From Taklimakanibacter albus (lineage in GTDB: Bacteria; Pseudomonadota; Alphaproteobacteria; Rhizobiales; Aestuariivirgaceae): a stretch of DNA of 64,000 nucleotides. The number at the start of each line of letters is the position of its first letter. Positions within the stretch are counted from its first letter, which is position 1. Positions 1,234-20,927 of this stretch are shown piece by piece. Both the position numbers and the translations under genes were made by a program. The stretch spans positions 1,992,043 through 2,056,042 of the forward strand of contig NZ_JAENHL010000007.1 of the NCBI RefSeq assembly GCF_016595235.1, in the 5' to 3' direction. A model generated the notes under the pieces. The model saw nothing but the letters and a program-made list of their open reading frames with translations, was not told the DNA's origin and did not search any database.

Positions 1234-1279
1234 GTATCTATCAATGGCCCGCACAATAAGGGGCGACAGGGAGAGAAAC

Positions 1280-2812: not shown

Positions 2813-2818
2813 CGTCAA

Positions 2819-2849
2819 GCGGGAGGAGCGCCCCCGGCGCCCCTCCCGC
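2819..2849 (+). promoter_or_regulatory. Intraoperon hairpin between binding protein and permease
   Basis: GCGGGAGG and CCTCCCGC flank an inner GCGCC/GGCGC pair, giving a 13-bp GC-rich stem with one A-C mismatch and a 3-base loop. No U-tract follows. It lies in the 63-bp gap between the binding-protein stop and the permease start. Such structures protect upstream mRNA or terminate part of the transcripts, raising binding protein over membrane parts; that role is inferred. Confidence 0.7.
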
Positions 2850-2875
2850 ACCGCTTTGCAAGGTTTCACAAAAGT

Positions 2876-3880: not shown

Positions 3881-4721
3881 GGCGCGTGTCATCCGGGTGA
3901 AAGCAGGCCCGCGGCTGTGGCTGTCGGGCCTGTGGCTCACCTTTTTCGCGCTCGCCGCCATTTTTGCGCCGCTCATCGTGCCGCATGATCCCCTCGCCCA
4001 GGACCTCATGCTCGGCAAATTGCCGCCGGCCTGGGTCGCCGGCCATGAGCCCGGTTATCTGCTCGGCACCGACAGCCTCGGCCGCGATGTGCTGTCACGC
4101 TTGATCTCGGCGGCGCGCCCGGCGCTTTTCGTCGCCATCGGCGCCGGCCTCGCCGCCTGTATCCTGGGCTCGGTGCTGGGATTGATCGCCGGCTTCTTCG
4201 GCGGCTGGACCGATCGCGTCATCTCGCGCATCGTCGATATCTGGATGGCCTTTCCGCCGGTGCTCCTGTCCATCCTGCTGGTCGCCTTCCTCAATCCGAG
4301 CCTGCAGTCGGTCATCATCGCCATCGCCATCATCGACTGGACCCGCTTCTGCCGCGTGGTGCGCGCCGAGACGATGCAGCAGCGCCGCATGGACTATGTC
4401 GAAAGCGCCCGTGCCATGGGCCTGAGCTCGATCGCCACTCTGGCGCGCGAGGTGCTGCCCAATGTCTTGCCGGCGATCATCGTGCTGCTGTCGCTCGAAA
4501 TGGGCATTGCGGTGATCGTCGAAGCCATTCTGTCCTACGTCAATCTCTCGGTGTCGACCGACCAGGCGACCTGGGGCAGCATGATCGCCGAAGGCCGTGG
4601 CATCATCTATCAGGCCTGGTGGGTGCTGGTCTTCCCGATGATCGCCCTGTTCCTGACCGTGCTGGCCTTCAGCCAGTTCGGCGAGGGATTGAAAGAGCGC
4701 TTCGATCCGGTGCTGCGGTGA
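3873..4721 (+). CDS. ABC transporter permease, DppC-like
   Basis: A 282-residue permease of the DppC/OppC family. The N-terminal helix is followed by the family motif LLGTDSLGRDVLSRLISAAR, then five more membrane segments and an ATPase-coupling loop (MDYVESARAMGLSS). The ATG at 3873, inside the end of the upstream gene, gives the normal short N-terminus; an earlier in-frame start at 3846 would add nine residues and overlap more. Its stop overlaps the GTG start of the first ATPase gene (GTGA). Confidence 0.93.
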   Translation: MAEARVIRVKAGPRLWLSGLWLTFFALAAIFAPLIVPHDPLAQDLMLGKLPPAWVAGHEPGYLLGTDSLGRDVLSRLISAARPALFVAIGAGLAACILGSVLGLIAGFFGGWTDRVISRIVDIWMAFPPVLLSILLVAFLNPSLQSVIIAIAIIDWTRFCRVVRAETMQQRRMDYVESARAMGLSSIATLAREVLPNVLPAIIVLLSLEMGIAVIVEAILSYVNLSVSTDQATWGSMIAEGRGIIYQAWWVLVFPMIALFLTVLAFSQFGEGLKERFDPVLR

Positions 4722-5608
4722 CGGAGGCCTACCTCGACATTCGCGATCTGAGTGTCGCTCTCCAGCATAGCGGCGACCGTCTGCTGCGCCGGGTATCGCT
4801 CGCCGTGAGGCCGGGCGAGGTCCACGCTCTGGTGGGTGAGTCGGGGGCCGGCAAGAGTATGATCGCCCGCGCCGTCTTCGGCATCCTGCCGAAAGCGGTG
4901 ACGATCCTCGAAGGACAGGTGACCATCGAAGGAGCCGATCTCAATGGCATGTCGGAGGCCGCGCGCCGTCTGTTCATCGGCAAGCGCGCCGCCTTCATCC
5001 CCCAGGATCCGCTGACCGCGCTCAATCCGTCGAAGCGGATCGCCGATCAGATCTCTGACCGCCTGATCCATATTCTGGGCATGCCCAAGGCCAAGGCGCA
5101 CGAACGCGCCGCGGCCCTCCTCGAAGAAGTGAAGATCGCCGATCCCGAACGGGTGATGCGGCTCTATCCGCATGAATTGTCGGGCGGCATGCGCCAGCGT
5201 GTGCTCATCGCCGCCGCTTTTGCCGGCGAGCCCCGGCTGATCGTCGCCGACGAGCCGACAACGGCGCTCGACGTCACGGTGCAGCGGCAGATATTGGCGC
5301 TCATTGCCGGCATGCAGGCGCGCCACGGCACCGCCCTTCTTTTCATCACCCATAATCTCGGCGTGGTGGCGAAGCTCTGCCAGACGGCATCGGTCCTTTA
5401 TGCCGGCAAGGTGGTCGAGCAGACGAGCGTGCGCCGGCTCTTCGCCGACCCTCGACATGCTTACACGCGCGCCTTGATGGCGGCGACGCCACGCTACGAC
5501 CGACCCGAGGAGTCCCTCAAACCCGCCTCGCCCGAGCTCATGGGTGAGCTCGCCCGCGAAGTGGCCGAGACCGACGCTCTCTGGGCGAAGGAGCGGGCGC
5601 ATGGCTGA
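4718..5608 (+). CDS. ABC transporter ATP-binding protein, DppD-like
   Basis: A 296-residue nucleotide-binding subunit. Walker A is GESGAGKS, the Q-loop region is FIPQDPLTALNPS, the signature is LSGGMRQR, and Walker B is LIVADEPTTALD, followed by the HN switch (FITHNLG). The C-terminal stretch after residue 250 is the oligopeptide/dipeptide transporter extension. The GTG at 4718 overlaps the preceding stop by four bases and places the first beta strand about six residues in, which is normal for the family. It pairs with the following ATPase as a heterodimer. Confidence 0.92.
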   Translation: MTEAYLDIRDLSVALQHSGDRLLRRVSLAVRPGEVHALVGESGAGKSMIARAVFGILPKAVTILEGQVTIEGADLNGMSEAARRLFIGKRAAFIPQDPLTALNPSKRIADQISDRLIHILGMPKAKAHERAAALLEEVKIADPERVMRLYPHELSGGMRQRVLIAAAFAGEPRLIVADEPTTALDVTVQRQILALIAGMQARHGTALLFITHNLGVVAKLCQTASVLYAGKVVEQTSVRRLFADPRHAYTRALMAATPRYDRPEESLKPASPELMGELAREVAETDALWAKERAHG

Positions 5609-6425
5609 CGCTCTGTTCAAGGTCGAAGATCTGCATCTCTCGCTTCCTGATCTGGCGCGCAAGCCGCTCTTCGGCACGGCGCCGCGCATCACGATCCTCA
5701 AAGGCCTGAGCTTCACCGTGCCGGAAGGCGCCATCACCGGCATTGTCGGGGAATCGGGCTCAGGCAAAACCTCGCTCGGTCGCACTTTGATCCGCCTTCT
5801 CACACCTGACGCGGGCCGGATCATCTTTGCCGGACGTGATATTGCCGGTCTCGACGACGAGGCGCTGAGGCCGCTGCGGCGCGACCTGCAGATCATCTTT
5901 CAGGATCCCTTCTCTTCCCTCAACCCGCGCAAGACCGTCGGCGCCATCATCGCGTCACCGCTTCTCCTGCACAAAGTCGCGACGGCCGGCGGCGAGGCCC
6001 GCGATCTCGCTCTGGAAGCGCTGACTCAGGTCGGCTTGCCGGCTTCCTTTGCCGCGCGATATCCGCATGAATTGTCGGGCGGCCAGCGCCAGCGCGTCGG
6101 CATCGCCCGCGCCGTGGCGCTCAAGCCGCGTTTTATCCTGGCGGACGAGATCGTATCGGGTCTCGACGTGTCGAGTCAGGCGCAGATCCTGGCCCTGCTG
6201 ATGGAGCTGCGTGCCCGGATGAACTTCACCATGGCCTTCATCAGCCATGACCTGTCGGTGGTGCGCCGCCTGTGTGACCGCGTGATCGTGATGCGCAAGG
6301 GCGAGATCGTCGAAGACGCCGACACCGTCACACTCTTCGACAAGCCACAGCATGCCTATACGCGGCTGCTGCGCGATTCCATTCCCTTACCGGAAGTGAG
6401 CGACGGCTGGCTCCAGGACGCCTAG
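5601..6425 (+). CDS. ABC transporter ATP-binding protein, DppF-like
   Basis: A 274-residue second nucleotide-binding subunit of the peptide-type importer. Walker A GESGSGKT, signature LSGGQRQR, Walker B FILADEIVSGLD (the usual proline after DE is replaced by isoleucine) and switch histidine in FISHDLS are visible. The ATG at 5601 overlaps the previous gene by 8 bases. The gene ends four bases into the convergent Gfo/Idh gene on the other strand (shared 6422-6425), so no terminator separates the two operons. Confidence 0.92.
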   Translation: MADALFKVEDLHLSLPDLARKPLFGTAPRITILKGLSFTVPEGAITGIVGESGSGKTSLGRTLIRLLTPDAGRIIFAGRDIAGLDDEALRPLRRDLQIIFQDPFSSLNPRKTVGAIIASPLLLHKVATAGGEARDLALEALTQVGLPASFAARYPHELSGGQRQRVGIARAVALKPRFILADEIVSGLDVSSQAQILALLMELRARMNFTMAFISHDLSVVRRLCDRVIVMRKGEIVEDADTVTLFDKPQHAYTRLLRDSIPLPEVSDGWLQDA

Positions 6426-7561
6426 TTGCCGATGCTCGCCACCGACACCCACTGACGGCCCGCAGCCGACTGCTCCATTGCATCGCACACCGCCTGCACC
6501 TTGAGGCCCTGCGCGAAGTCGGGATCCCACGGCCCCTGCGGCCACTTCTCGAGCAGATCGCCGAAATGATTGACGAAGCTCGAGCCATAACCGACGCCCT
6601 GGCCGATCGCCCACCAATTGGCGGCATAAGGATGCGATATATGCTCGGCGCGGATTCGGCGCATGCCATAGAGCTCGACCGCGTCGCTGCCGTCGCCATA
6701 GAGAAGCTCGTTGAGCCTGGCATAATCAAAATGCAGCGTGCCCAGCGTGCCATTCACTTCGACGGTGAAGTCGCAGGGCCGCCGGACGCAGGAACGCGTC
6801 ATTTCCATGATGCCGCGCGCGCCGTTCGAAAACCGCACCAGGGCCGATGAAGCATCGTCGATCTCGACCTTGCGCGTGCCGCCGGGTTTCGCCGGATCGG
6901 TGCGCTCGCGCACGAAAGTCTCCGACTGGGCGCTGACCTCGGCGATATCGCCGACCATCCACTGCGCCATGTCGATCAGATGGGCGCCGAGATCGGCAAT
7001 GGTGGTGCCGCCCATCTTGCGCTCGAAACGCCAGTCGAAGGGGATGTTCGGATCGATGAACTCGTCCGACATCCAGATGGCGCGCCAGTGCTGAATCTTG
7101 CCGACCTTGCCGTCGTCGATCATCCGCTTCATCAGCGAGACAGCCGGGAGCTTGCGGTAGTTGAAGCCGACGGCGTTCAGGACACCGGCTTTCCTGACCG
7201 CCTCGAGCGCCATACGGCCCTCTTCATAGGATGTGGCGAGTGGCTTTTCGGAAATCACCGCCTTGCCATGCGCCGCGGCGGCGGCGGCGATCTCGGCATG
7301 GGTGCCGGGCGGCGTACAGATATCGACGATGTCGACATCGGGGCTTTCGACGATCTTCCGCCAGTCGGCGGTCGAGCGCGCAAAACCGTAGGCGGCGGCC
7401 GCCTTCTCGACGCCGGCTTGATGTCGGCCGCTGATGATATGGAGCTCAGGTTCGACGGGAAGCTTGCGCAAGGTATTGAGCGCCCGATAGGCATAGGAAT
7501 GCGCCTTGCCCATGCCGCCATAACCGATCATGCCGATGCGGACTCTTGGCAATGAAGTCAT
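6422..7561 (-). CDS. Gfo/Idh/MocA family oxidoreductase (A)
   Basis: A 379-residue NAD(P)-dependent dehydrogenase. The N-terminal Rossmann fold has GYGGMG at residues 13-18, the EKP motif is at 105-107 (Lys106), and the C-terminal domain holds D190 and H194 in IADLGAHLID, which with the lysine form the usual catalytic triad. The DWRFE segment before it resembles levoglucosan/glycoside 3-dehydrogenase relatives. The start is ATG at 7561, overlapping the upstream gene stop by four bases and preceded by GGGAGGACGAG. It is the last gene of a four-gene operon starting at 10549. Likely role: oxidation or reduction of a sugar or cyclitol carbon; substrate unknown. Confidence 0.88.
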   Translation of the reverse strand: MTSLPRVRIGMIGYGGMGKAHSYAYRALNTLRKLPVEPELHIISGRHQAGVEKAAAAYGFARSTADWRKIVESPDVDIVDICTPPGTHAEIAAAAAAHGKAVISEKPLATSYEEGRMALEAVRKAGVLNAVGFNYRKLPAVSLMKRMIDDGKVGKIQHWRAIWMSDEFIDPNIPFDWRFERKMGGTTIADLGAHLIDMAQWMVGDIAEVSAQSETFVRERTDPAKPGGTRKVEIDDASSALVRFSNGARGIMEMTRSCVRRPCDFTVEVNGTLGTLHFDYARLNELLYGDGSDAVELYGMRRIRAEHISHPYAANWWAIGQGVGYGSSFVNHFGDLLEKWPQGPWDPDFAQGLKVQAVCDAMEQSAAGRQWVSVASIGN

Positions 7562-8493
7562 CTCGTCCTCCCTTTCATCATGGCGGCCGAAGCCTGCTCG
7601 GCGGCAGTGAGGGCAGCGATCGCATCCGCCGCCGTGGCGCCTTCCGACGGCCGGCCACAGACCGCTTCGGCAAAGCCTTCCGCCTGGAGCCTCAACGCAT
7701 CGAGGAACACTTTCTCGCCGTTGGGCGGCCAGAAGAACCGGCAATCCTCGAAGCCTTTGGTGCCGAAGACCTGCGCCCAGCAGGAATCGCCCAGCGGGAA
7801 ACGACGGCCCAGCGAGATGAGGCCGCTGGCGCCTCCCGACAGGTCGCAGAGCGCTTGGGCGGCATCCGGATCGACCTCGATCCTCTCGGCGAAGACGGTG
7901 TTGGCGGTGGCGACGCGCGGATGGGAGATCTCCTGGCCGGTCAGCCAGCGCAACTGGTCAAATTCATGCACGCCCATGTCGATGAAGGCGCCGCCGCTCG
8001 TGGCGCGGAAGGAAGCGGGCGACGGCATCTCGTCCCACTGATAGCAGGAGACGAGATAGAGATCGCCGAACTCGCCTTGCGCAATCCGGTCCTTGAGGCG
8101 TTTGAGGGCCGGCACGAAACGTCGCCAATAAGCGACCTGGAGCAGCACATTTTCCTTCGCCGCGATCTCGGACGCGATGCGCGCCTCGCGCGCCGTGATG
8201 CCGCAGGGCTTTTCGCACAGGATGGAAAGCCCGGCGACCGCGAGCCGCGCCACCATATTGACGTGATGGCTGCTGGGCACCGCGACCAGCGCGCCGTCGA
8301 TGCCGCCGGCCTTCAACATCTCCTCGACATCGGCATGGAGCTTGACGCCGTCGGGCAGCTTGAGTGAGGAGCGGATCGTTTCCGACGTCTCGGCGACCGC
8401 CACCACTTCGACGCGCTCGCTGCCGGCAAGGGCGCGCAAATGCGTCTGGCCCATCCGGCCCGCACCGACGAGTCCCAGCCGGAACCGCGCCAT
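7558..8493 (-). CDS. Gfo/Idh/MocA family oxidoreductase (B)
   Basis: A 311-residue dehydrogenase, short for the family. Rossmann motif GAGRMG at 10-15, EKP at 94-96, and D172/H176 in GGAFIDMGVHEFDQ give a complete triad. Its similarity in layout to inositol 2-dehydrogenases suggests a polyol or cyclitol substrate, but this is family-level inference. It sits two bases after the isomerase-type gene and overlaps oxidoreductase A by four bases, so three dehydrogenases and one isomerase are translated from one message. The short C-terminus looks intact. Confidence 0.87.
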   Translation of the reverse strand: MARFRLGLVGAGRMGQTHLRALAGSERVEVVAVAETSETIRSSLKLPDGVKLHADVEEMLKAGGIDGALVAVPSSHHVNMVARLAVAGLSILCEKPCGITAREARIASEIAAKENVLLQVAYWRRFVPALKRLKDRIAQGEFGDLYLVSCYQWDEMPSPASFRATSGGAFIDMGVHEFDQLRWLTGQEISHPRVATANTVFAERIEVDPDAAQALCDLSGGASGLISLGRRFPLGDSCWAQVFGTKGFEDCRFFWPPNGEKVFLDALRLQAEGFAEAVCGRPSEGATAADAIAALTAAEQASAAMMKGRTR

Positions 8494-8496
8494 GGC

Positions 8497-9426
8497 TCAG
8501 AAGCCCCGCTGGCTGAGATAATTCAGATTGGCGACCTGGTCCTTGGCCGGCCGGTCGGGCGCCGAAGCATCGGGCAATATGTCCTGCTCGACCACCAGCC
8601 AGCCCGCATAATGCCGGCGCAGGTGATCGAGCACACCGTCGATATCGACGTCACCCTTGCCCAGTGCGCAGAAGGCGCCACGCCGCCAGATCTCGATCAC
8701 CGGTGCGGCTTCTTTGACGATCTTGTCGATCACATTGATGCGCGCATCTTTCAGATGAATATGATTAATGCGCCCGTTCCACTCTTTCAGCGCCTTGACT
8801 GGCTCGCCTTGGCCGAGCAGCAGATGGCCGGTATCGAGGCAGAGATCGATGCTGGTCAGCTCCAGCATCTTCTCGATCTCCCACACCGCTTCGATATGGG
8901 TGCCGGTCTCGTGATGGAATGTCGGCTCATAACCACGCTCGCGGCAGCGCGCCACGGCGCTTTCGAGCCCGTCGGCAAAACGCTTCCAGCCTTCCTTGTC
9001 GAAACCGAGATCACGGTTGGTTGCCGCCTGGCCCGGATGTGCCTTGCGCCTGTCGCTGCCGAGATCGGCGAGCGTCGGTTTGGGTTTGAGGCCGCTCTCC
9101 GGCACGCCCGCCGCGTCGAAGACATCGAGCAGGATGTCGAGCTCATGCAGCGCCGGCCTCATGCGCGCGGGCTCGCTATAGGGCAGCTCCAGATAGCCGC
9201 CGGCGAGGCCGAGCTTGCGGTCGTTGAGGCGTTTCTTCAATTCGTCGCCCTGGCCCAGATAGCCGGCGGGGCCGAGATCGATGCCGCGATAGCCGGCGCC
9301 CGATACGGCATCGAGAATGCCTTCGCCGTCCGGCACATGGGGATCGATGCCGACGGTGATCTCGAAGGCACCGAAGCTCACCGGCGCATTGGCGAGAACG
9401 ATCTTGTCTTTTGCGGTCTGCGTCAT
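8497..9426 (-). CDS. Sugar isomerase/epimerase-like TIM-barrel protein (IolE/MocC-like)
   Basis: A 309-residue xylose-isomerase-like TIM barrel. Likely divalent-metal ligands follow the usual E-D-H-E order: E173 (HHETGTH), D198 (LDTGH), H224 (HIHLKD) and E280 (VVEQD). The N-terminus LANAPVSFGAFE is typical of a subgroup found beside Gfo/Idh dehydrogenases. Relatives isomerise, dehydrate (IolE on 2-keto-myo-inositol) or eliminate from 3-keto sugars, so the gene probably acts on the keto product of a neighbouring dehydrogenase. It is second in the operon, ten bases after the previous stop. The exact reaction cannot be assigned. Confidence 0.82.
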   Translation of the reverse strand: MTQTAKDKIVLANAPVSFGAFEITVGIDPHVPDGEGILDAVSGAGYRGIDLGPAGYLGQGDELKKRLNDRKLGLAGGYLELPYSEPARMRPALHELDILLDVFDAAGVPESGLKPKPTLADLGSDRRKAHPGQAATNRDLGFDKEGWKRFADGLESAVARCRERGYEPTFHHETGTHIEAVWEIEKMLELTSIDLCLDTGHLLLGQGEPVKALKEWNGRINHIHLKDARINVIDKIVKEAAPVIEIWRRGAFCALGKGDVDIDGVLDHLRRHYAGWLVVEQDILPDASAPDRPAKDQVANLNYLSQRGF

Positions 9427-9436
9427 GGTCTGTCCT

Positions 9437-10549
9437 TCAGGCGCTAAAACTCGCCATATCGGTTGGACGCGCGACAGGCTGGCGCGTCAGATGGGCTTTG
9501 ATGATCGACTGGCAGAGCGCGATGTCACGCAAGGCATCGGGCCCGGAGGTGCGGGGGCTCAGTCCCTTGGTCACGCAGTCGTGGAAATGCAGAAGCTCTT
9601 CCTTGAAGCTCTCGCTGTAGGAGACGATTTCTTCATTCCGGTAGGATTTCGCCGACGCCGCATCGCCGCCCTCATCGACGAGGAGCGTCGGCGCGCTGCG
9701 CAGGAACGGCGACGGCATCGACAGAGTAAGGCGCCGCGCCGGCGTGTAGAAGGCGAATTCCATCTGATAACGGGCGATGCCCGGCAGATCGACCCAGTTG
9801 ATCGTGCACTGCGCCTTGCCATAACGCAGGATCGCGGTGAGCCCGGTCTCGCCGATATCGGCGAAGGCGAGTTCATCCGGCTCGCCGAGGATGCCACGCA
9901 CCACGTTGAACTCATGCACCATGCTGTCGAGCAGCACGAGGTGATAGGCCCTGCGCGCCAAGGGATCCTGGGTGGCGATGGCTTTGGTGATGCGTTGGTC
10001 GGTATCGGCGGCGAGCCTGGCGAGCAGATCGGCCGGCACGTGGCCGCCACGATGGAGCACATAATGATCGACATAGGGCTTGAACGGCGATTCAAGCGTG
10101 GTGACACGGATGAGGCGCAGATCCTCGAGCGATCTCGCTTCTTGCTTGAGGCGGACGAAGGCCGGATCATATTGCTTGTTATAGGCGACCATCAACACCA
10201 CGCCGGCATGGGCGGCGGCGGTGATCATGTCCTGGCCTTCCGCCACGGAGAAACACATCGGCTTTTCGACGAGTACATGGATGCCGGCTTCCGCCGCCGC
10301 GATGGCGATCGGCGCGTGGCTGCCGGGCGTGAGGATGAAAACGGCATCGAGCCGCTCTTTCAGCAGGTCGCGCCAGTCGCCGAAGGTCTTGGTAACATTG
10401 TAGTCGCGGGCGCAGGCCTCGCGCACGCTCTCGGAGATATCGCAGAGCGCCACGATCTCATAGCGGTCCGCCAGTTCGCGCAGATAGTTCAGATGCATGA
10501 CCTGCGCGACCAATCCACAGCCGATCACCCCGACACGCAGCCTCTTCAT
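9437..10549 (-). CDS. Gfo/Idh/MocA family oxidoreductase (C)
   Basis: A 370-residue dehydrogenase leading the minus-strand operon. The Rossmann strand RVGVIGCGLVAQ has an unusual GCGLVA in place of GxGxxG, EKP is at 95-97, and D208/H212 in LLDSMVHEFNVV complete the triad. A loop at 155-200 (about 40 residues between the first C-terminal strand and the catalytic helix) is longer than in A and B, which points to a different substrate pocket. The promoter upstream carries a consensus -35 and a LacI-type operator over the start point (10562-10573), so this gene and the three after it are probably repressed by the LacI protein at 11839. Confidence 0.87.
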   Translation of the reverse strand: MKRLRVGVIGCGLVAQVMHLNYLRELADRYEIVALCDISESVREACARDYNVTKTFGDWRDLLKERLDAVFILTPGSHAPIAIAAAEAGIHVLVEKPMCFSVAEGQDMITAAAHAGVVLMVAYNKQYDPAFVRLKQEARSLEDLRLIRVTTLESPFKPYVDHYVLHRGGHVPADLLARLAADTDQRITKAIATQDPLARRAYHLVLLDSMVHEFNVVRGILGEPDELAFADIGETGLTAILRYGKAQCTINWVDLPGIARYQMEFAFYTPARRLTLSMPSPFLRSAPTLLVDEGGDAASAKSYRNEEIVSYSESFKEELLHFHDCVTKGLSPRTSGPDALRDIALCQSIIKAHLTRQPVARPTDMASFSA

Positions 10550-10561
10550 GCAACCCTCTTT

Positions 10562-10573
10562 TGGAACGTTCCA
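10562..10573. promoter_or_regulatory. LacI-type operator O1
   Basis: TGGAACGTTCCA is a perfect 12-bp palindrome with the central CG typical of LacI/GalR operators. It is 13 bp upstream of the start codon at 10549 and, judged by the promoter at 10577-10605, covers the start point of transcription. The identical sequence recurs at 15951 and a one-base variant at 10691. Confidence 0.8.
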
Positions 10574-10576
10574 TAA

Positions 10577-10605
10577 ATCGTAAAAGCCAGTATAAACTCT
10601 GTCAA
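10577..10605 (-). promoter_or_regulatory. Sigma-70-type promoter for Gfo/Idh operon
   Basis: Read on the minus strand, a perfect TTGACA -35 (10600-10605) is followed after 17 bases by TACGAT (10577-10582) as the -10. Transcription would start near 10570, inside operator O1, and give a short leader to the ATG at 10549. This is the best-formed promoter seen in the window. Confidence 0.65.
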
Positions 10606-10690
10606 GAACTCACTTATTGCACTGTTCGGAAATCTTGCTTTCCGGGACCTTTCGTAGGGCGTGCCACAGAATCGCCTAATAAAACTATGA

Positions 10691-10702
10691 TGGAACGATC
10701 CA
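10691..10702. promoter_or_regulatory. LacI-type operator O2
   Basis: TGGAACGATCCA differs from the perfect palindrome by one base. It follows a TATGAT hexamer (10686-10691) and ends one base before the ATG of the plus-strand isomerase gene. Its centre is 129 bp from that of O1, so one repressor could govern both divergent directions, possibly with looping. No Shine-Dalgarno lies between it and the ATG; a weak GGA is inside the operator. Confidence 0.7.
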
Positions 10703-10703
10703 C

Positions 10704-11663
10704 ATGTCTCACCGTCTTCCCCGTCTTGGCCTCGTCACCGAACCGCTCGCCAATATGGCGCTCACCGATCTCATGGACTGGCTCGTCGCCGAAGTTCCCG
10801 AGATCACCGATCTCGAAATCGGCACCGGCGGCTATGCGCCGACCAGCCATTGCGACATGCCGCTCCTCCTGCGCGATCCGGGCGCCCGACAGTCCTGGCG
10901 CGAGGAGATCGCGGCCCGGGGCTTGAGGCTCGCCGCCTTCAATGTCTGGGGTAATGCGCTCCATCCCGATCCGGCGATCGCCCGCAAGCACGACGAGGAT
11001 CTGCGCGCCACGATCCGGCTCGCCGCCGAGACCGGCGTCGACCGCATCGTCGCCATGGCCGGCTGCCCGGCGGGTGCTGCTGGCGACAAGACCCCGCATT
11101 TCGCAGGCGGGGGCTGGCTGCCCTATCTCGAGAATATCCATGACTGGCAATGGCAGGACCGCATCGTCCCCTATTGGACCAGGCTCGCCGACTTCGCCCG
11201 CGAGACTCACCCCGACGTCATGATCTGCCTCGAACTCCATCCCGGCACGATCGCTTACAATGTCGAGACCTTCGAGCGCCTGGCCGCGCTCGGCCCGGCG
11301 ATCTCGGCCAATATCGATCCCAGTCACTTTTTCTGGATGGGCATGGATGCCAATCGCATCGTGGAGCGGCTCGGCAGCCGCATCGGCCATGCCCATGGCA
11401 AGGACGTATTGTTCCAGAAGGACCAACTCGCCCTCAATGGGCTCCTCGACAATCGCTGGCCGAAGCCGCCGGACGAAATGCCGTGGAATTTCGCCACCGT
11501 CGGGCGCGGCAGGAATGCGCAGTGGTGGCGGACTTTCCTGGCCGATCTCGGCAAGTCCGGCACGGTCACGACCCTCGCCATCGAGCATGAGGATCCCTTT
11601 GTCGAGCCCAAGGCCGGCATCATCGAGGCGGGGCGGCTGCTCGCGGCGGCCGCGACCGATTGA
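10704..11663 (+). CDS. Sugar isomerase/epimerase-like TIM-barrel protein (AP-endonuclease-2 fold)
   Basis: A 319-residue metal-dependent TIM barrel, distinct from the one at 8497. The likely ligands are E177 (CLELHPG), D205 (NIDPSHF), H231 (HAHGKD) and E294 (AIEHED), in the family order. It is transcribed away from the dehydrogenase operon from the shared control region and carries operator O2 right at its start codon. Two different barrels beside three dehydrogenases recall levoglucosan and glycoside pathways in which one barrel eliminates and the other hydrates a 3-keto sugar; this is inference. The ATG at 10704 is the first that gives a full first strand (RLGLVTEPLA). Confidence 0.83.
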   Translation: MSHRLPRLGLVTEPLANMALTDLMDWLVAEVPEITDLEIGTGGYAPTSHCDMPLLLRDPGARQSWREEIAARGLRLAAFNVWGNALHPDPAIARKHDEDLRATIRLAAETGVDRIVAMAGCPAGAAGDKTPHFAGGGWLPYLENIHDWQWQDRIVPYWTRLADFARETHPDVMICLELHPGTIAYNVETFERLAALGPAISANIDPSHFFWMGMDANRIVERLGSRIGHAHGKDVLFQKDQLALNGLLDNRWPKPPDEMPWNFATVGRGRNAQWWRTFLADLGKSGTVTTLAIEHEDPFVEPKAGIIEAGRLLAAAATD

Positions 11664-11668
11664 CAGTT

Positions 11669-11766
11669 TAACCTCTCACCCGCGACCGGGGAGAGAGTGC
11701 GGGTGCGAGTATCGAGCTGGCTTGACTTCGCCGGTTCCCTCGCACCCGCTCCTCCCCGCGGTTGAT
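11669..11766. repeat. Intergenic inverted repeat (family B-like)
   Basis: The gap between the isomerase gene and lacI holds a perfect 11-bp inverted repeat, GCGGGTGCGAG (11699-11709) and CTCGCACCCGC (11739-11749), flanked by weaker complementary CCTCTC/GGGGAG and CTCCCC stretches. The sequence style (ACCTCTCACCCGCGACCGGG) matches common alphaproteobacterial intergenic palindromes, as at 61901. It may act as a transcription end or mRNA stabiliser for the upstream gene. Confidence 0.6.
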
Positions 11767-11838
11767 GAGGAATGACAAGCTGGATCAGCCACTTGGTCTG
11801 GAGTAACAGAAGGGCATGAACATGCATGGCCCGAGCTC

Positions 11839-12879
11839 ATGAAAGGCCCGTCCGAATCGGTGAAGCCCGCGACCATTCTCGATGTCGCGCGGCTCGCCAA
11901 GGTTTCCAAGTCGACGGTCTCCAATGTCATCCGCGACGCCAAGGGCATCGCGCCGCAGACCATTGCCCGGGTGCGCGCCGCCATCGATGAGCTTGGCTAC
12001 CGTCCCAATGTGCTGGCCCGCCAGCTCGTCCAGCAGCGCACCAATGTGCTGGGCGTGGTGGTGGGCGATCTCGCCAATCCGTTCTTCTCGGAAATGACCA
12101 AGCAGATCGAGCGTTATGCCGGCCAGCACGGTTATCAGGTGATGTTCTGCAACACCCAGATCGACGAGCATATCGAGCTCGCCGGGCTGCGCGGCCTGCT
12201 CGATTACCGCATCGCCGGTCTGATCTTCCTTGCTTATGCGGGAGATGAGGAAAGCGCCCGCCTCGTCACCGAAAGCCGCGTGCCCGCCCTCTTTCTCACC
12301 TGCACTGCCGATTGGGGCGATGTCGTTTCTCCCGATGACGAGAAAGGCGGGCGCATTGCCACCGAGCATCTGCTCGAGCTCGGCCACCGCCGCATCGCCT
12401 ACATCGCCGATCCTTCCGTCGAGGATGCCGCCGATCAGGCGCGCCAGTCCGGCTATCGCCGCGCCATGGTGAAAGCGGGCCTGCCGACCGCCGTCTATCA
12501 CTGGCAAGGGTCGGAAGGGAAAACGCTCAAGGAGACCACGATCGAGAAGGTACTGCTCGGCGACGACCGGGTGACCGGCGTCTTCTCCTCGAACGATCTC
12601 GGCGCCATCGAACTTCTCGATTGCGCCGACCGTCTGGGCGTCCGGGTGCCGCAGGATCTCTCCGTCGTCGGCTTCGACGACGTCATGCTGGCGAGTCTCC
12701 GGCGGATCAATCTGACCACGGTGGTACAGCCCAAGGAGATGATGGCGCGCATTGCGGTGTCGACGATCGCGTCGCGCATCAAGGGCGAGCTGACCGGCGG
12801 CCATCTGCGCCAGATCGTCGATTGCGGCCTCATCGTGCGCGGCTCGACCGCACCGCTCAAGAAGAGCAAAAGTGGTTGA
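11839..12879 (+). CDS. LacI family transcriptional regulator
   Basis: A 346-residue repressor. The N-terminal helix-turn-helix (ILDVARLAKVSKSTVSNVI) is followed by the hinge helix region (YRPNVLARQL) and a periplasmic-binding-protein-like sugar sensor with the typical FDDVMLASLRRINLTTVVQP end segment. The three TGGAACG-type palindromes in front of the dehydrogenase operon, the isomerase gene and the sugar-importer operon are its probable operators. The inducer is probably the imported sugar or a pathway intermediate. Its stop (12877-12879) directly abuts the stop of the convergent ATPase gene with no gap, so the two transcripts must overlap. Confidence 0.92.
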   Translation: MKGPSESVKPATILDVARLAKVSKSTVSNVIRDAKGIAPQTIARVRAAIDELGYRPNVLARQLVQQRTNVLGVVVGDLANPFFSEMTKQIERYAGQHGYQVMFCNTQIDEHIELAGLRGLLDYRIAGLIFLAYAGDEESARLVTESRVPALFLTCTADWGDVVSPDDEKGGRIATEHLLELGHRRIAYIADPSVEDAADQARQSGYRRAMVKAGLPTAVYHWQGSEGKTLKETTIEKVLLGDDRVTGVFSSNDLGAIELLDCADRLGVRVPQDLSVVGFDDVMLASLRRINLTTVVQPKEMMARIAVSTIASRIKGELTGGHLRQIVDCGLIVRGSTAPLKKSKSG

Positions 12880-13728
12880 TCACACGCCCGCAGCGCGCTT
12901 CAGGCGCGGTTCGGCCGTCGGCTGTGCCGTCTCGCTCGCCGCGATCGCTTCGAGCTCGGCTTCGAGATCGACCAGCTCCTTGCCGCCGGCCATCATGTCG
13001 GTGACTTTCTCGCGCGAGATTTCGGCCTTGGCGAACGTGCCGAGGCTCTTCGCCCTGTTGAGCAGAGTGAATCGGTCGGCGATCGGATAGGCGTGATGCA
13101 CATTGTGGGTGATGAAGATCACCCCGAGGCCCCGCGCCTTCGCCCGGGCGATAAGACGCAGCACGACAGAGGCCTGATGCACGCCGAGCGCCGATGTCGG
13201 CTCGTCGAGAATGAGGATGCGGGCGCCGAAATGGACGGCGCGCGCGATGGCAAGGCACTGGCGCTCGCCGCCCGACAAGGTGCCGACCGCCTGGCGGGGA
13301 TCGCGGATATCGATCCCCATCTTGCTCATCTCGTCGCGCGCAGTGCGGTTCATGAAGTCCCAGTCGAGCCGGCGCAGGACGCCACGCCCTTTGGTCTTCT
13401 CGCGGCCCATGAAGAAATTACGCGCGATGCTCATCAAAGGCACCGTCGCCAGATCCTGATAGACGGTGGCGATCCCCTGATCGAGCGCGTTACGCGGCGA
13501 GGCGAGCGTGACGGCCTTGCCGGCGATACGGATCTCGCCGGCCGTCGGCTGGAACACGCCCGACAGCAATTTGATCAACGTCGACTTGCCGGCGCCATTG
13601 TCCCCGAGCAGACAATGAATCTCACCCGGGCGCACGCCGAAGGAGACTTCCTTCAGCGCGATGACGGAGCCGAAGAATTTGCTGACCTGGGCGAGCTCGA
13701 GAAAATCCGATGTCTCGGTCATGGCCAT
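12880..13728 (-). CDS. Sugar ABC transporter ATP-binding protein (FrcA-like)
   Basis: A 282-residue single nucleotide-binding domain, the short form found in Frc/Rbs-type importers with one NBD per chain rather than the 500-residue tandem RbsA form. Walker [10 protein letters not shown], signature LSGGERQ, Walker [12 protein letters not shown] and switch histidine FITHNVHH are visible, plus an Ala/Glu-rich tail. ATG at 13728 shares its A with the permease stop (TGATG); GTG at 13731 and ATG at 13722 are alternatives. It is the last gene of the binding protein-permease-ATPase operon. Confidence 0.9.
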
Positions 13729-14837
13729 CACCGTGAATAGGTCACTTTGCGGCGGACATAGGTGTTGAACAGCACCGCGATCAGCACCATGGCGCCCATG
13801 AACACCTTGAACCAGTCGGTATCGACGCCGGTGAAGAAGATGCCCATCTGCACCGTGCCGAAAATGAGCGCGCCCAAAGCGGCGCCGATCGCCGAGCCAT
13901 AGCCGCCGGTGAGCAAGGTGCCGCCCACCACCACGGCGATGATCGCCTCGAATTCCTTGAGCTGACCGCGCAGCGTGTCGGCCGATCCCGCTTCGAGAAC
14001 CTGGATGACGGCCAGCAAGGTGGCGGCAAAGGCGGTGCCGATGAAGAGCAGGATCTTCACCCGCGTCACCGGCACGCCGACATTGCGCGCCGCCACCGGA
14101 TCACCGCCGGAAGCGAAGATCCAGTTGCCGAAGCGCGTCTTCATGAGGATCCAGGTGCCGAGCAAGGTGAGCAGCATCCACCAGACTACCGCCATCGGGA
14201 TGCCGGGCGCCAAAGGTGTGCCGTCGGTGCGCATCTGCAGCCAGCCGAGACTGCCCATACACTGGAAGAGGTCCTTGAGCACATAGCCTGAGAAGATCGG
14301 CGCCAGCCAGTCGTCCTTGGCATAGTCGCCAATGCCCGACACGACGGTGCGGTTGGTGGCGGCGCGGGTGAGCGCCAGCGTGAGGCCGCGCAGGATGAAC
14401 ATGCTGGCGAGCGTCACAATGAAGGAGGGAAGTCCGGTGCTGATGGTGAGATAGCCGTTGATGAATCCGATCACCAGGGCGACCAGGAAGGCGAGCAGGA
14501 TGCAGGACCAAAGAGGCCAGCCCCATTCGACTGCCGGGATGGCGATGACGATGCCGGCGAAGCCGATCATCGAGCCGATGGAGAGGTCGAACTCGCCGGC
14601 GATCATCAGAAGCGCCACGGCGGCGGCGAGAATGCCGACCTGGGCTGACACATCGAGGAAGGTGATGATGCCCTTGGCGCTGAACATGCCGGAATCCCCG
14701 GCAAAGGTGAGAAAGAAGCCGAAGACCAGGATGGTGCCGGCAACCGCCCCCAGCTCCGGCCGGCCGAGCAGGAAGCGCCAGGTCGGAATGGCGCGGACCC
14801 TTTCGTCGGACATCTTGCTATGGGCTACAGCGGACAT
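13728..14837 (-). CDS. Sugar ABC transporter permease (FrcC/RbsC type)
   Basis: A 369-residue BPD_transp_2 permease with eight to ten membrane segments. Family hallmarks are [17 protein letters not shown] near residue 105, the [22 protein letters not shown] segment and [20 protein letters not shown] near 310. It is somewhat longer than RbsC because of a periplasmic insertion around 190-225 between two helices. The pore is probably a homodimer driven by the following ATPase. Substrates of this class are monosaccharides, cyclitols and related polyols. Confidence 0.9.
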
Positions 14838-14891
14838 CGGCGTCTCGAAGCTCCATCCTGACAGAATGCGGGAATGATGAAAGCGGGAAAA

Positions 14892-14922
14892 AGCGTGGCG
14901 GCCGGGAGAGAGCCGCCACGCT
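14892..14922 (-). promoter_or_regulatory. Intraoperon hairpin between binding protein and permease
   Basis: AGCGTGGCGG (14892-14901) and CCGCCACGCT (14913-14922) form a perfect 10-bp stem with an 11-base loop, 14 bases after the binding-protein stop and 55 bases before the permease start on the minus strand. No U-run follows. It matches the position of hairpins in four other importer operons here. Confidence 0.72.
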
Positions 14923-14936
14923 GGATCACCAGGGCC

Positions 14937-15890
14937 TCAGCGGAAGCCCTTGCGGCTGAGCTCGATAACGCTGCCGGCCGTGTCCTTGGTGATGAAGCCG
15001 GGCCCGGTCGGCCAAGCCGTGGTCGGCATCACGCCATAAAGTTTGTAGTTCTTGAACAAGGCGACCGGCAGATAACCCATCATGAATTGCTGGGCATCGG
15101 TGGCGAAGAGCAATGTGCCGTCAGCCACCTTCTCCAGGATCTCCGGCGTCATGTCGAAGGTCGCCATCGCCTTGAGGCGGCTCTTGGCGTCCATCTCCTC
15201 GACGGCGGCGAGCATCGGCGATGCGCTGGTGGGGCCGAGCGCGATGATACCGTCGATCGTCTGGTCCTGCTGCAAGGCACTGGCGATGCGGGATTTGGCA
15301 TCGACCGGGTCGGTCATCGTCACCGGCACGATCGTCTGCTTGACGCCCGAGCCGTCCTTCACACCGCGGCAGCGATTGTCGAGATCGGTGTTGCCCACTT
15401 CCATGTTGATACACATGATGTGGGTGGCGCCGGCGGCCTTCAGTTTCTCGCCTACCGCCACGCCGGCCTGGTATTCGTCCTGACCGAGATAAGCGGAAAT
15501 GCCGAGCTCCTTGTATTTGGTGAGGCCGGAATCGATGCCGATCACCGGAATGCCGGCCGCGAGCGCCGACTGGATCGGCGCCTTCAGCGCATCGGCGTCC
15601 GGAATGGAGACGACGATGCCGTCGGGTTTGCGCGCCACGGCCGAGTCGATCATCTTGCCCATCGCCGACATGTCGAACACATCGGGCGCTTCATATTGGA
15701 CATCCGCTTCGAAGGTCTTGGCGGCTTCGGCGAGGCCGTTTTTGATGGCGTTCCAATAGGGATCGCCGGCCTGGCCATGGGTGATGAAGATCACCTGCAT
15801 CTTCTTTTCGTCGGCCTTGAGCTCTGGCGAGACCAAGGTCGAGATCATGCCGGCAATCAGAGCCAGCATGATGATAATCAGTCTTTTCAT
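14937..15890 (-). CDS. Sugar ABC transporter substrate-binding protein (RbsB/FrcB type)
   Basis: A 317-residue periplasmic binding protein of the ribose/galactose fold. A lipophilic signal peptide (KRLIIIMLALIAGMISTL) is followed by the mature start QVIFITHGQAGDPYW, then GIVVSIPDADAL and GIPVIGIDSG, all in their usual places. A cysteine pair (CINMEVGNTDLDNRC) may form a disulphide. The ATG at 15890 has an excellent AAGGAGGT seven bases before it; a longer frame to 15917 lacks a signal at its start. The operator at 15951 lies 61 bp upstream. Ligand unknown, presumably the substrate of the adjacent dehydrogenases. Confidence 0.91.
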   Translation of the reverse strand: MKRLIIIMLALIAGMISTLVSPELKADEKKMQVIFITHGQAGDPYWNAIKNGLAEAAKTFEADVQYEAPDVFDMSAMGKMIDSAVARKPDGIVVSIPDADALKAPIQSALAAGIPVIGIDSGLTKYKELGISAYLGQDEYQAGVAVGEKLKAAGATHIMCINMEVGNTDLDNRCRGVKDGSGVKQTIVPVTMTDPVDAKSRIASALQQDQTIDGIIALGPTSASPMLAAVEEMDAKSRLKAMATFDMTPEILEKVADGTLLFATDAQQFMMGYLPVALFKNYKLYGVMPTTAWPTGPGFITKDTAGSVIELSRKGFR

Positions 15891-15950
15891 GGGCTTACCT
15901 CCTTTTTGAGCCGTCATTACGCCTTGCTCTGCGGCAAGGTTATGAAGATG

Positions 15951-15962
15951 TGGAACGTTCCA
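15951..15962. promoter_or_regulatory. LacI-type operator O3
   Basis: TGGAACGTTCCA, identical to O1, upstream of the sugar-importer operon. Its presence at both places ties transporter and dehydrogenases into one regulon. A 6-bp hairpin (15922-15939) follows in the leader. The MocR gene end is about 90 bp away on the same strand and is not obviously part of this control. Confidence 0.8.
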
Positions 15963-16062
15963 AATCTGATTTCGAAAATAAGCCGGCTCGCGCCGACTTG
16001 CTCCACTCCAATCAGAAGCTTAACCCCTCCATGGCTCCCCCAATAGAGCCAATTTCTGTATT

Positions 16063-17553
16063 TCATATAGAGCCAAGTTTAGGGGCCCGCCGTTTGCCGG
16101 CCTCCGTGAAGCTGGCCTTCAGCGCCATGACTGCGGTCTGGATATCCCGCTCATTGAGAGCGGCGTAACCGAGCAGGAGCCCCTGCTCCGGTGTCTTGTG
16201 ATGATAGTTGATCGAGATCGGTTGCAGGTCGATGCCATGGGCATGGCCGATCTCGGCGATCCTCACATCGTCCATCTTCGCCGTGAAGCGGGCGATCACC
16301 TGCATGCCGGAGTCACTGTCGCTGACCACGATCCACGGATTCAAATGCTGGCGGCACAAAGTGATGAACTCCTTCTGGCGCTCGCCATAGACACGGCGCA
16401 TGCGTTTGAGATGGGTGGCGAAATGGCCCTCCTCGATGAAATCGGCAAGTGTCACCTGCAGGATCAACGGCGTGAATTGGCCGGTGACGCCGACCGCGCG
16501 ATTGAACGGCTCGACCAGTGCATCCGGCACCACCAGGAAGCCGATGCGCAGCGACGAGAACAATGTCTTGCTGAAAGTGCCGAGATAGATGACCCGGTCG
16601 GCGCGGTCGAGACCCTGCATGGCCGGCATCGGCTGACCGCGAAAACGATACTCGCCATCGTAGTCGTCCTCGATGATCCAGGCGCCATGCCGCTCGGCAT
16701 GGCTGAGAAGATGAAGTCGCTCTTCCATGCGCATGGTAGCGCCAAGCGGCCATTGGCAGGCGGGCGTCACATAGATGAGGCGCGGAGCCGGAAGGGCGGC
16801 ATCATCGAGCGCCCAGCCCTCGGCACCGACGGAGAGCGGATGCAGTCTGGCGCCGGCGGCCTCGAGCGCGCTGCGGGCCCCCCAATAGCCGGGCTCCTCC
16901 ATCCACACCGGATCGCCCTCATCGAGCAGCAGCCGCGCCGCGAGATCGAGGCCGGCCTGGGCGCCGGTAACCACCACCACACGCTCAGGACTGCAGGAGA
17001 CACCGCGTGATATTGTGACGTAGTCGGCGATCGCCGCGCGCAGACGCGGATGGCCGGAAAAATGATAATAGCCCAGCAGATCGCCGCTGCGCCGCCTGGC
17101 ATTGCGGGCAAGGAGACGCGCCCAGGTGGCGAAGGGAAAGTTGGAGACTTCCGGAAAGCCTGGCTGGAAATTGATCTTGTCCGGATTGCGCAGAGGTTGA
17201 AGCCGTGTCGCCAGCGCTTCGCCACGCCGCGAGATGGGCGAGCGGTTCTGGGCAGGCGGCGCTCCCGGTGGTGGCGCCGGACGGTCGGGCAGATTGGCCA
17301 CCCAGGTGCCACGTCCCGGCCGCGCCTCGACATAACCTTCAGTGAGAAGCCGCTCATAGGCAGCACTCACTGTGTTGCGGCCGAGCTTCAGTTGCTGCGC
17401 CAGGCCCCGTGTCGCCGGCAAGGTGCTGCCCGCCCTGAGGCGACCGCTAAGGATGAGCGAACGCAGCGTGTCATAGAGCTGGCGATGGGCCGGCAGACGC
17501 GCCGATCTGTCCACCGTCAATATGTCGAAAGGAAAATGCGAACGGTTGCTCAA
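16063..17553 (-). CDS. enuR: MocR/GntR-type PLP-dependent regulator (EnuR-like)
   Basis: A 496-residue fusion of a GntR winged helix (residues 20-85, RQLYDTLRSLILSGRLRAGS and NTVSAAYERL) with an aminotransferase fold-I domain. The PLP aspartate region EDDYDGEYRF and the Schiff-base lysine K329 in GTFSKTLF are present, so PLP binding should be intact. EnuR proteins of this class control ectoine use and sense diaminobutyrate derivatives; the gene follows the eut-type genes on the same strand, which supports that role. The start is TTG at 17553 with GGGAGA before it; no ATG is available nearby. A role for the LacI-type sugar locus on the other side is possible but less likely. Confidence 0.78.
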   Translation of the reverse strand: MSNRSHFPFDILTVDRSARLPAHRQLYDTLRSLILSGRLRAGSTLPATRGLAQQLKLGRNTVSAAYERLLTEGYVEARPGRGTWVANLPDRPAPPPGAPPAQNRSPISRRGEALATRLQPLRNPDKINFQPGFPEVSNFPFATWARLLARNARRRSGDLLGYYHFSGHPRLRAAIADYVTISRGVSCSPERVVVVTGAQAGLDLAARLLLDEGDPVWMEEPGYWGARSALEAAGARLHPLSVGAEGWALDDAALPAPRLIYVTPACQWPLGATMRMEERLHLLSHAERHGAWIIEDDYDGEYRFRGQPMPAMQGLDRADRVIYLGTFSKTLFSSLRIGFLVVPDALVEPFNRAVGVTGQFTPLILQVTLADFIEEGHFATHLKRMRRVYGERQKEFITLCRQHLNPWIVVSDSDSGMQVIARFTAKMDDVRIAEIGHAHGIDLQPISINYHHKTPEQGLLLGYAALNERDIQTAVMALKASFTEAGKRRAPKLGSI

Positions 17554-18746: not shown

Positions 18747-18747
18747 G

Positions 18748-19926: not shown

Positions 19927-19934
19927 TCTATCTC

Positions 19935-20924: not shown

Positions 20925-20927
20925 GAT

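Follow-up and report, generated by a model that had tools for sequence, protein, structure and literature searches.

The locus described here probably encodes a MocA-based route for the catabolism of a cyclitol that feeds the iol pathway, and the likeliest substrate is an amino-inositol of the scyllo-inosamine or rhizopine type; the probability of this reading is put at about 0.6. Rhizopines are amino-inositols produced in the nodules of legumes. The locus sets MocA in a compact group of five enzymes under a clean operator, and relatives carry iol genes next to the cassette, so that it offers defined proteins for working out the chemistry.

Organisation of the locus

Nine genes, all present as open reading frames at 6422–15917 by the frame calls of the window (the whole 64,000-nucleotide stretch of Taklimakanibacter albus DNA that was analysed), make up the block. 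Their orientation is mixed: G3, G2, B2, G1 and the importer genes lie on the minus strand, and B1 and the LacI gene on the plus strand. Pfam assigns Gfo/Idh domains to G1–G3, AP_endonuc_2 barrels to B1 and B2, and LacI, ABC_tran, BPD_transp_2 and Peripla_BP_4 domains to the regulator and importer genes, the importer being of the CUT2 type. The dehydrogenases G1, G2 and G3 are 26–35% identical to one another, over partial alignments only, and all three keep the EKP lysine and the Asp-x3-His motif. B1 and B2 share no significant similarity by BLASTP, and a metal motif of four ligands is retained in each. Pfam matched no kinase, aldolase or glycosidase family among the nine genes. The inventory of the earlier note, namely three distinct Gfo/Idh/MocA dehydrogenases in full frames, two different metal-site TIM barrels, a LacI regulator with an importer, and none of these three other enzyme classes, is therefore upheld.

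A MocA orthologue among three dehydrogenases

Judged by identity and tree, G2 (7558–8493, minus strand) is an orthologue of rhizobial MocA, the rhizopine catabolism dehydrogenase. It is 60% identical over 98–99% to the MocA proteins of the rhizobial moc loci L059 and L061, and 62% identical over 287 residues to MocA of a third. When MocA was used as a query in the host genome, G2 was the best match at 404.9 bits and the next reached 118.5 bits; tree support for the G2–MocA pairing is 95/99. To call the pathway uncharacterised, as had been done, is too strong for a locus with this MocA.

G3 (6422–7561, minus strand) has an ATG at 7561, although most analyses used 6422–7555, two residues shorter. 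It is placed in the levoglucosan/scyllo-inositol dehydrogenase branch of the Gfo/Idh enzymes, and its top PDB matches are 4h3v, 6a3f (260.6 bits), 4gqa and 5ya8. G1 (9437–10549, minus strand) is assigned by PF01408 only, and no Pfam model matches its C-terminal part; residues K96, D208 and H212 correspond to the conserved dehydrogenase positions.

Two dissimilar TIM barrels

By profile and structure model, B2 (8497–9426, minus strand) is an IolE-like TIM barrel with the metal motif H171/D198/H224/E280, in which Glu173 aligns with the position of a histidine in IolE. The comparison with IolE that had been proposed was run on a predicted structure (pLDDT 90.0), and the best matches were IolE structures (TM 0.76–0.81). 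B2 scores 131.8 bits against the IolE model TIGR04379, below the cut-off of 290, and G2 scores 166 bits against IolG, below the cut-off of 355; a plain iol operon was rejected on these two scores. Identity between B2 and MocC is 29–31%, and the locus holds no MocC orthologue.

B1 (10704–11663, plus strand) carries the motif E177/H179/D205/H231/E294. The best match of this barrel (predicted structure pLDDT 89.2) is the uncharacterised protein 2zds (profile E 2.8e-15, TM 0.82), followed by structure 8ro4 of AtHYD, a 2-hydroxy-3-keto-glucal hydratase (profile E 1.6e-9, TM 0.71–0.73). The suggestion of an eliminating and a hydrating barrel fits the resemblance of B2 to IolE and that of B1 to AtHYD, the latter ranking second to an uncharacterised protein. 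The O-/C-glycoside beta-elimination and levoglucosan routes, as described in PMC7676230, PMC10066097 and PMC10628242, use the enzyme families found in the locus and possibly share their chemical logic with it.

An operator shared by cassette and importer

The LacI-family regulator (11839–12879, plus strand; PF00356/PF13377) is 52–60% identical to the LacI proteins of six Dormibacterota/Chloroflexi cassette loci and has an identical recognition helix. Three putative operators precede the transcription units, in agreement with the earlier proposal of one LacI-controlled unit: O1, TGGAACGTTCCA (10562–10573), before the G1-B2-G2-G3 operon, in a place conserved in relatives; O2 (10691–10702), with one mismatch, directly before B1; and O3 (15951–15962), a perfect palindrome, before the importer operon. 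The 7.17-Mb host genome contains exactly two exact copies of TGGAACGTTCCA, one before G1 and one before the importer. An operator was found before G1 in 11/11 Dormibacterota/Chloroflexi cassette loci, and the 23 related loci together hold 55 sites (49 without six counted twice in overlapping loci) versus 0.4 expected. In the six actinobacterial cassette loci, no operator was found outside genes. Because the operator is shared in the host and its site is conserved in relatives, the cassette and importer appear, on this sequence evidence, to make up a single LacI regulon, which has passed from one phylum to another. An operator with at most one mismatch just before B1 was seen only in L001 and L005 of 10 relative loci scanned, and L007 has two operator-like sites with three mismatches there; with so few relatives, LacI control of the iolG side is not established.

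Uptake and the MocR-family gene

The importer comprises an ATPase (12880–13731) and a permease (13728–14837), both assigned by Pfam, and a solute-binding protein (SBP) of the inositol/rhizopine type (14937–15917, with a better start probably at 15890), all on the minus strand. It resembles those of two alphaproteobacterial CUT2 importer loci with iolG: one on a Rhizobium plasmid, where it adjoins iolG (L024; SBP 47%, permease 53%, ATPase 63%), and one in Thioclava, within an iolE-iolD-iolC...iolG operon (L051; 47%, 53% and 60%). The window enzymes differ from those loci in falling below the IolG and IolE cut-offs. The best PDB match of the SBP is 4ru1, whose ligand is myo-inositol. Against the rhizopine SBP model NF052284 it scores 352 bits, below the cut-off of 420, and it has no match at 1e-5 to the SBPs in the moc position of L059 and L061. 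NF052284 is a doubtful yardstick for MocB, because those two SBPs themselves miss it at 1e-20. A same-genus locus (L055) carries another importer, with an SBP above the rhizopine cut-off.

Adjoining the nine-gene block is a gene for a MocR-family (GntR-aminotransferase) regulator (16063–17553, minus strand), which scores 743.6 bits against NF052281 (cut-off 650) and is 53–54% identical to MocR of L059 and L061. It also exceeds the PdxR cut-off, as do those two MocR proteins. The gene sits 44 bp behind ectoine-type genes, and its product may act for these, for the importer, or for the two together. In genome G247 no MocA orthologue was found (best 117 bits), so the presence of MocR does not imply that of MocA.

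A scan for the moc box, made after the MocR match and not beforehand, gave a direct repeat at 16045–16079 (minus strand; two 11-mers, 13 bp apart, 3/22 mismatches). It is the best in the window, the next best having 6 mismatches; the best score in 200 shuffles was 4 mismatches, reached once. One half of the repeat lies inside the MocR coding end, and the whole is 128–162 bp before the SBP start at 15917, or 155–189 bp from 15890. The mocB promoters of three moc loci have 3, 4 and 3 mismatches to the moc box, and the same-genus MocR locus L055 has no such repeat (best 6 mismatches).

Relation to the rhizobial moc system

The locus resembles mocCABRDEF of Sinorhizobium meliloti L5-30, compared via L059 and L061, in its MocA orthologue and MocR-family protein. 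A barrel of the IolE family, an ABC importer and, possibly, the moc-box-like repeat are further points of likeness, and use of the inositol pathway is assumed. According to its title, given in the reference list of PMC3454389, Galbraith 1998 reports that rhizopine use depends on that pathway. The locus differs from the moc system in the subfamily of its SBP and in adding B1, G1, G3 and the LacI regulon. Correspondingly, the moc loci L059 and L061 gave no B1 match and only partial or weak matches to G1 and G3, and no mocDEF-type genes occur among the nine genes or in the MocR gene. With a MocC orthologue and a positional MocB orthologue both absent, the locus is not a full moc system.

Conservation and inositol genes

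The order B1-G1-B2-G2 is colinear in 16/23 related loci, from Dormibacterota/Chloroflexi and Actinobacteria. The scan required exact peptide patterns, which possibly left out near relatives of the host, and genes in the loci were called with a codon-usage script, so that their starts are approximate. A G3 orthologue follows G2 in 11/16 cassettes; none was seen in 5/6 actinobacterial cassettes, within the sequence examined. Genes for iolD and/or iolB stand beside the cassette in 8/16 loci, checked as equivalogs in L007 only, and thus indicate inositol catabolism. The host itself encodes IolE (390 bits), IolD (935), IolB (327) and IolG (402) outside the locus, all above cut-offs, with the IolE, IolD and IolB genes ~235–245 kb away on the same contig. 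IolE above the cut-off was found in 0/12 cassette genomes searched, six of them without an IolE-like match >135 bits, so B2 may stand in for IolE there.

Proposed pathway and alternative substrates

We infer the substrate, the step order, the group that is eliminated and the part played by each regulator as follows. The CUT2-type importer would take up the cyclitol. LacI would sit on the TGGAACGTTCCA operators ahead of G1, of B1 and of the importer genes and repress them until an inducer is present, and MocR would possibly add activation at the moc-box-like site. A ring hydroxyl would be oxidised by one or more of MocA/G2, G1 and G3, beta-elimination by B2 would remove a substituent as ammonia, methanol or water, B1 would then rehydrate or isomerise, and a further Gfo/Idh enzyme would set the oxidation state, giving the suggested order of oxidation, elimination, hydration and reduction. 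The product, a keto-inositol or trihydroxycyclohexane-dione, would enter the host IolE/IolD/IolB pathway.

Among the anhydrosugar, glycoside and cyclitol offered by the earlier note, the cyclitol is favoured because of the iol neighbours and the importer's kin inside iol loci. These two observations fit equally well a nitrogen-free cyclitol, either a rare stereoisomer of inositol or an O-methyl-inositol such as pinitol or ononitol. G1–G3 would then interconvert keto-inositols, and the barrels would act as epimerases or remove methanol or water; rhizobial MocA would have been borrowed for rhizopine later. Plant O-methyl-inositols are commoner than rhizopines, B2 is possibly a plain IolE stand-in in cassette genomes, and no MocR was seen among the annotated genes of the Dormibacterota/Actinobacteria loci (a subset of genes scanned). 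A nitrogen-free substrate is nevertheless rather unlikely, given that a MocR-family gene and a moc-box-like repeat adjoin the importer and that transporters of amine-type families accompany the cassette in other loci: an amino acid permease family in L007 and a PotABCD-like transporter in L011, with none of its components above cut-off. A literature search returned nothing useful on genes that degrade O-methyl-inositols, nor on inositol in connection with Dormibacterota.

CUT1-type importers beside the cassette in L014 and L015, the nearness of G3 to levoglucosan dehydrogenase and the AtHYD resemblance of B1 would suit an inositol glycoside, but this is improbable beside an SBP of the rhizopine type, a MocA tied to monocyclic amino-inositol and a B2 closest to IolE, which acts on the inositol ring. 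The levoglucosan-type anhydrosugar pathway (LgdA-B1-B2-C) shares enzyme families with the locus, and G3 matches both 6a3f and the LgdA model NF052479. That match is 304 bits against an equivalog cut-off of 650, which no host gene passes, and the pathway was rejected on this ground; the iol neighbours in relatives, the presence of MocA and the G3 orthologue unseen in 5/6 actinobacterial cassettes, within the sequence examined, also make it highly improbable. Against the amino-inositol reading, the match to the moc system is confined to G2 and the MocR-family gene, and the CUT1-type importers fit larger substrates as well.

Occurrence and wider bearing

Wide occurrence of the locus was rejected: at 1e-60, the host alone carried window G1 among 385 genomes sampled for the class, and B1 was found in 2/297 genomes of the order, with 37% identity in the second. 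Similarly, G1 of L011 at 1e-90 occurred in 1/297 genomes of its order (itself), and window G1 at 1e-80 in 2/396 genomes of the phylum of L011.

Tentatively, the five-gene cassette could be a second, older inosamine/rhizopine route in soil Dormibacterota and Actinobacteria, in which B2, with Glu for His, would expel ammonia or methanol by beta-elimination so that MocDEF demethylation is unneeded, and from which rhizobial MocA would have been drawn. Gardener and de Bruijn, in a 1998 study cited by PMC10591227, reported non-rhizobial rhizopine users, and the cassette provides candidate genes for such users. If soil relatives consume inosamines, this would bear on engineered rhizopine signalling. 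A metallophosphoesterase also stands beside the Dormibacterota cassette, its only PDB match being an uninformative one (E 0.0042).

Locus organisation and regulation

The locus holds a genuine MocA cassette that is co-regulated with an importer of inositol type and has moved horizontally; no paper describing the cassette was found in literature searches, which covered open-licence papers. The block proposed in the earlier note, with three diverged Gfo/Idh dehydrogenases (G1–G3), two TIM barrels (B1 and B2), a LacI regulator and an importer, was borne out, and all nine genes are open. Genes G3 (6422–7561), G2 (7558–8493), B2 (8497–9426) and G1 (9437–10549) lie on the minus strand, at most 10 bp apart or overlapping, with G3 overlapping G2 from its ATG at 7561; given this spacing, they look like a single operon. 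B1 (10704–11663) and LacI (11839–12879) lie on the plus strand, and the ATPase (12880–13731), permease (13728–14837) and solute-binding protein (SBP; 14937–15917, better start probably 15890) of the CUT2-type ABC importer lie on the minus strand. Pairwise identity among G1, G2 and G3 is 26–35%, in partial alignments only, and B1 and B2 have no significant BLASTP similarity to one another. Beside G3, on the plus strand, translations suggest a peptide-type ABC importer operon (1244–6425).

The predicted LacI operator, TGGAACGTTCCA, occurs in perfect copies at 10562–10573 and 15951–15962, and with one mismatch at 10691–10702, against 0.09 matches expected in the window. A search for perfect sites in the 7.17-Mb host genome returned exactly these two. 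Importer and cassette are thus tied by a common operator, besides position, and are co-regulated via this predicted site.

Distribution of the cassette

B1 relatives were collected from genome contigs at 23 loci. In 16 of these (L001–L004, L006–L012, L015, L019–L021 and L023), B1, G1, B2 and G2 stand in that order on one strand, followed in 11 by a G3 orthologue. The contig of L005 ends after B2. At six loci (L013, L014, L016–L018 and L022) the B1 relative is accompanied by none of G1, B2 and G2; one of them, L013, has a G3 orthologue.

The 23 loci hold 55 operator sites with at most one mismatch, compared with 0.4 expected, or 49 after removal of six double counts from the overlaps L006/L016 and L007/L017. 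All are intergenic or at a predicted gene start, bar one in L011. A perfect operator precedes G1 in 11/11 Chloroflexi/Dormibacterota cassette loci, L005 included; in several of these, extra operators also stand in front of a zinc alcohol dehydrogenase gene, an amino-acid-type permease and a CUT1-type importer. In the six actinobacterial cassette loci, no operator lies outside a gene. The recognition helix of the window's LacI is common to the LacI of six of the Chloroflexi/Dormibacterota cassette loci. L014 carries at 8795–13593 a B1 paralogue together with an amidohydrolase and two dehydratase-like genes of the enolase superfamily; a one-mismatch operator stands at the start, and the group may form another branch of the regulon.

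BLAST with L007 genes placed iolD and/or iolB near the cassette in eight of the 16 loci (L001, L002, L003, L006, L007, L009, L010 and L015). In L007, iolD (915 bits), iolB (340) and methylmalonate-semialdehyde dehydrogenase (MMSDH; 604) exceed their equivalog cut-offs, and iolG (298) falls below its cut-off of 355. Neither iolD nor iolB was matched in the stretches compared from L008 and the Arthrobacter/Mycobacterium loci L011, L012 and L019–L021; those from L004 and L023 contain almost no DNA upstream of B1. L011 encodes a PotABCD-like importer, with relatives in L012, L019 and L020, and in L021 for the permeases only. PfkB and Cgl0159-like genes adjoin iolD and iolB in L015. The Dormibacterota/Chloroflexi iol operon of L007 has a transaldolase-family gene (6214–7260) between iolD and MMSDH, and neither a PfkB kinase nor the usual aldolase among the neighbours scanned; it perhaps encodes a variant lower iol pathway. 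In L007 (16926–18645) the cassette is joined by genes for a metallophosphoesterase and a nucleotidyltransferase-like protein, and in a Thermoleophilia MAG (L013, 6015–7720) such a pair adjoins B1.

The window and all cassette loci but L003 and L023 (14 of 16) were compared in a tree of four proteins, with the six actinobacterial rows as root; in it the window is sister to the eight Chloroflexi/Dormibacterota rows with 100/100 support. Among 385 genomes sampled from the host's class, G1 was found in the host itself alone. Horizontal gain by the host is the simplest account.

Relationship to rhizopine catabolism

NCBIfam identifies 16063–17553 as rhizopine MocR (743.6 bits, cut-off 650). The rhizopine catabolism (moc) loci L058, L059 and L061, from strains other than Sinorhizobium meliloti L5-30, were taken from 15 listed of 1,243 plasmid relatives (identity 52.7–53.9%). 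Their gene order agrees with the account of moc in PMC10107442: a Gfo in the MocA position is followed by the SBP, a divergently oriented MocR and genes of MocE/FAD type, and in both L059 and L061 the series starts with a barrel named iolE and a further Gfo gene. G2 is 60% identical to MocA of L061 and L059 over 98–99% of its length; G1 and G3 are not close to either. A MocA query matched host G2 at 404.9 bits (next gene, 118.5) and found its best match at the cassette G2 in all five cassette genomes that were queried (255–315 bits). A tree of 33 Gfo proteins, rooted at its midpoint and including G2 from nine of the 16 cassette loci, unites MocA and cassette G2 in a clade separate from IolG (100/100); the window's G2 groups with the three MocA proteins (95/99), not with Dormibacterota G2.

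The window's best pair resembling the moc-box, a direct repeat before mocB, has 3/22 mismatches and lies between the MocR and SBP genes, with one half inside the coding end of MocR (runner-up, 6). In 200 shuffled controls the lowest score was 4 mismatches, reached once, and the repeats before mocB of the three moc loci have 3, 4 and 3. A second host MocR-family gene (720.8 bits; L057, G000:C8:1545000-1564000) adjoins two Gfo/Idh genes and has a moc-box-like repeat with 4 mismatches at its start.

Several observations count against a simple moc label. The locus has no MocC orthologue, no mocDEF-type gene occurs among its nine genes and MocR, and its SBP, unlike that of moc, belongs to another subfamily. 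The MocR-family gene lies 44 bp behind ectoine-type degradation genes on the same strand (17598–21923, minus; two DoeA-like proteins, an EutC-like cyclodeaminase and EutB) and may serve them; EutB and a cyclodeaminase model score above cut-off, EutC reaches 429 of 472 bits and DoeA 480 of 613, and the MocR-family gene itself scores only 143.5 bits on the ectoine regulator model. MocR equivalogs also occur without MocA at the second host locus and in the same-genus genome G247, whose locus L055 (8601–16714) lacks a moc-box-like repeat (best, 6 mismatches). L055 unites a MocR-family gene (746 bits), divergent from a Gfo gene, an IolE equivalog (381), an SBP above the rhizopine cut-off (441), permease, ATPase and a G3-like gene; G247 has no B1 match at 1e-60.

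The window's SBP scores 352 bits on the NCBIfam rhizopine-SBP model, below the cut-off of 420. How well this model measures MocB is doubtful, because the moc-position SBPs of L058, L059 and L061 do not match it at 1e-20. Related importers adjoin iolG in a Rhizobium plasmid (L024) and lie within a Thioclava operon, iolE-iolD-iolC-Gfo-importer-iolG (L051). The same Thioclava plasmid, p3, carries a LacI gene, sugar ABC importer, Gfo and two TIM barrels (L052).

Barrels and proposed chemistry

G1, G2 and G3 each retain the EKP lysine and an Asp-x3-His motif. Glu177, His179, Asp205, His231, Glu294 and Glu296 are invariant among 18 B1-type sequences, as are His171, His224 and Glu280, and nearly so Asp198, among 15 B2 sequences. 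According to PMC10628242, the eliminase AtOGE binds its metal through His132, Asp163, His189 and, weakly, Glu233, His134 is catalytic, and Glu replaces His132 in the C-glycoside enzymes. By motif alignment of sequences, the AtOGE His132-x-His134 position would correspond to Glu-x-His in B1, His-x-Glu in B2 and His-x-His in aligned IolE.

The predicted B2 structure (pLDDT 90.0) best matches solved IolE structures (TM 0.76–0.81), and a profile search concurs (3cny, E 1.7e-36); B2 scores 131.8 bits on the IolE model, below the cut-off of 290. The B1 model (pLDDT 89.2) best matches uncharacterised 2zds (TM 0.82; profile search, E 2.8e-15), followed by the 2-hydroxy-3-keto-glucal hydratase AtHYD (8ro4, TM 0.71–0.73; profile search, E 1.6e-9). 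From these likenesses the barrels look like one dehydratase-type and one hydratase-type enzyme, in agreement with the earlier guess of an eliminating and a hydrating barrel. None of 12 cassette genomes has IolE above cut-off; six have an IolE-like gene at 168–185 bits and six have nothing above 135 bits. In the latter six B2 may act as IolE, and its role would then be less distinctive.

A cyclitol is well supported as the substrate class, with an amino-cyclitol the best single guess; levoglucosan is disfavoured. The substrate of IolE is scyllo-inosose. According to PMC6668481, MosB converts scyllo-inosose into scyllo-inosamine by transamination. MocA could oxidise the amine carbon, yielding scyllo-inosose directly; alternatively, a neighbouring carbinol would be oxidised and B2 would expel ammonia, yielding the IolD substrate without IolE. 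As host IolG, IolE, IolD and IolB, all above cut-off, are encoded outside the locus, the product of either route could be burned. B1, G1 and G3 might process O-methyl or stereoisomeric variants. The host's main iol cluster also contains a G3-like gene (L029, 2850–3953; 36% to G3), which reaches 344 bits, short of the cut-off, when scored with the levoglucosan dehydrogenase model.
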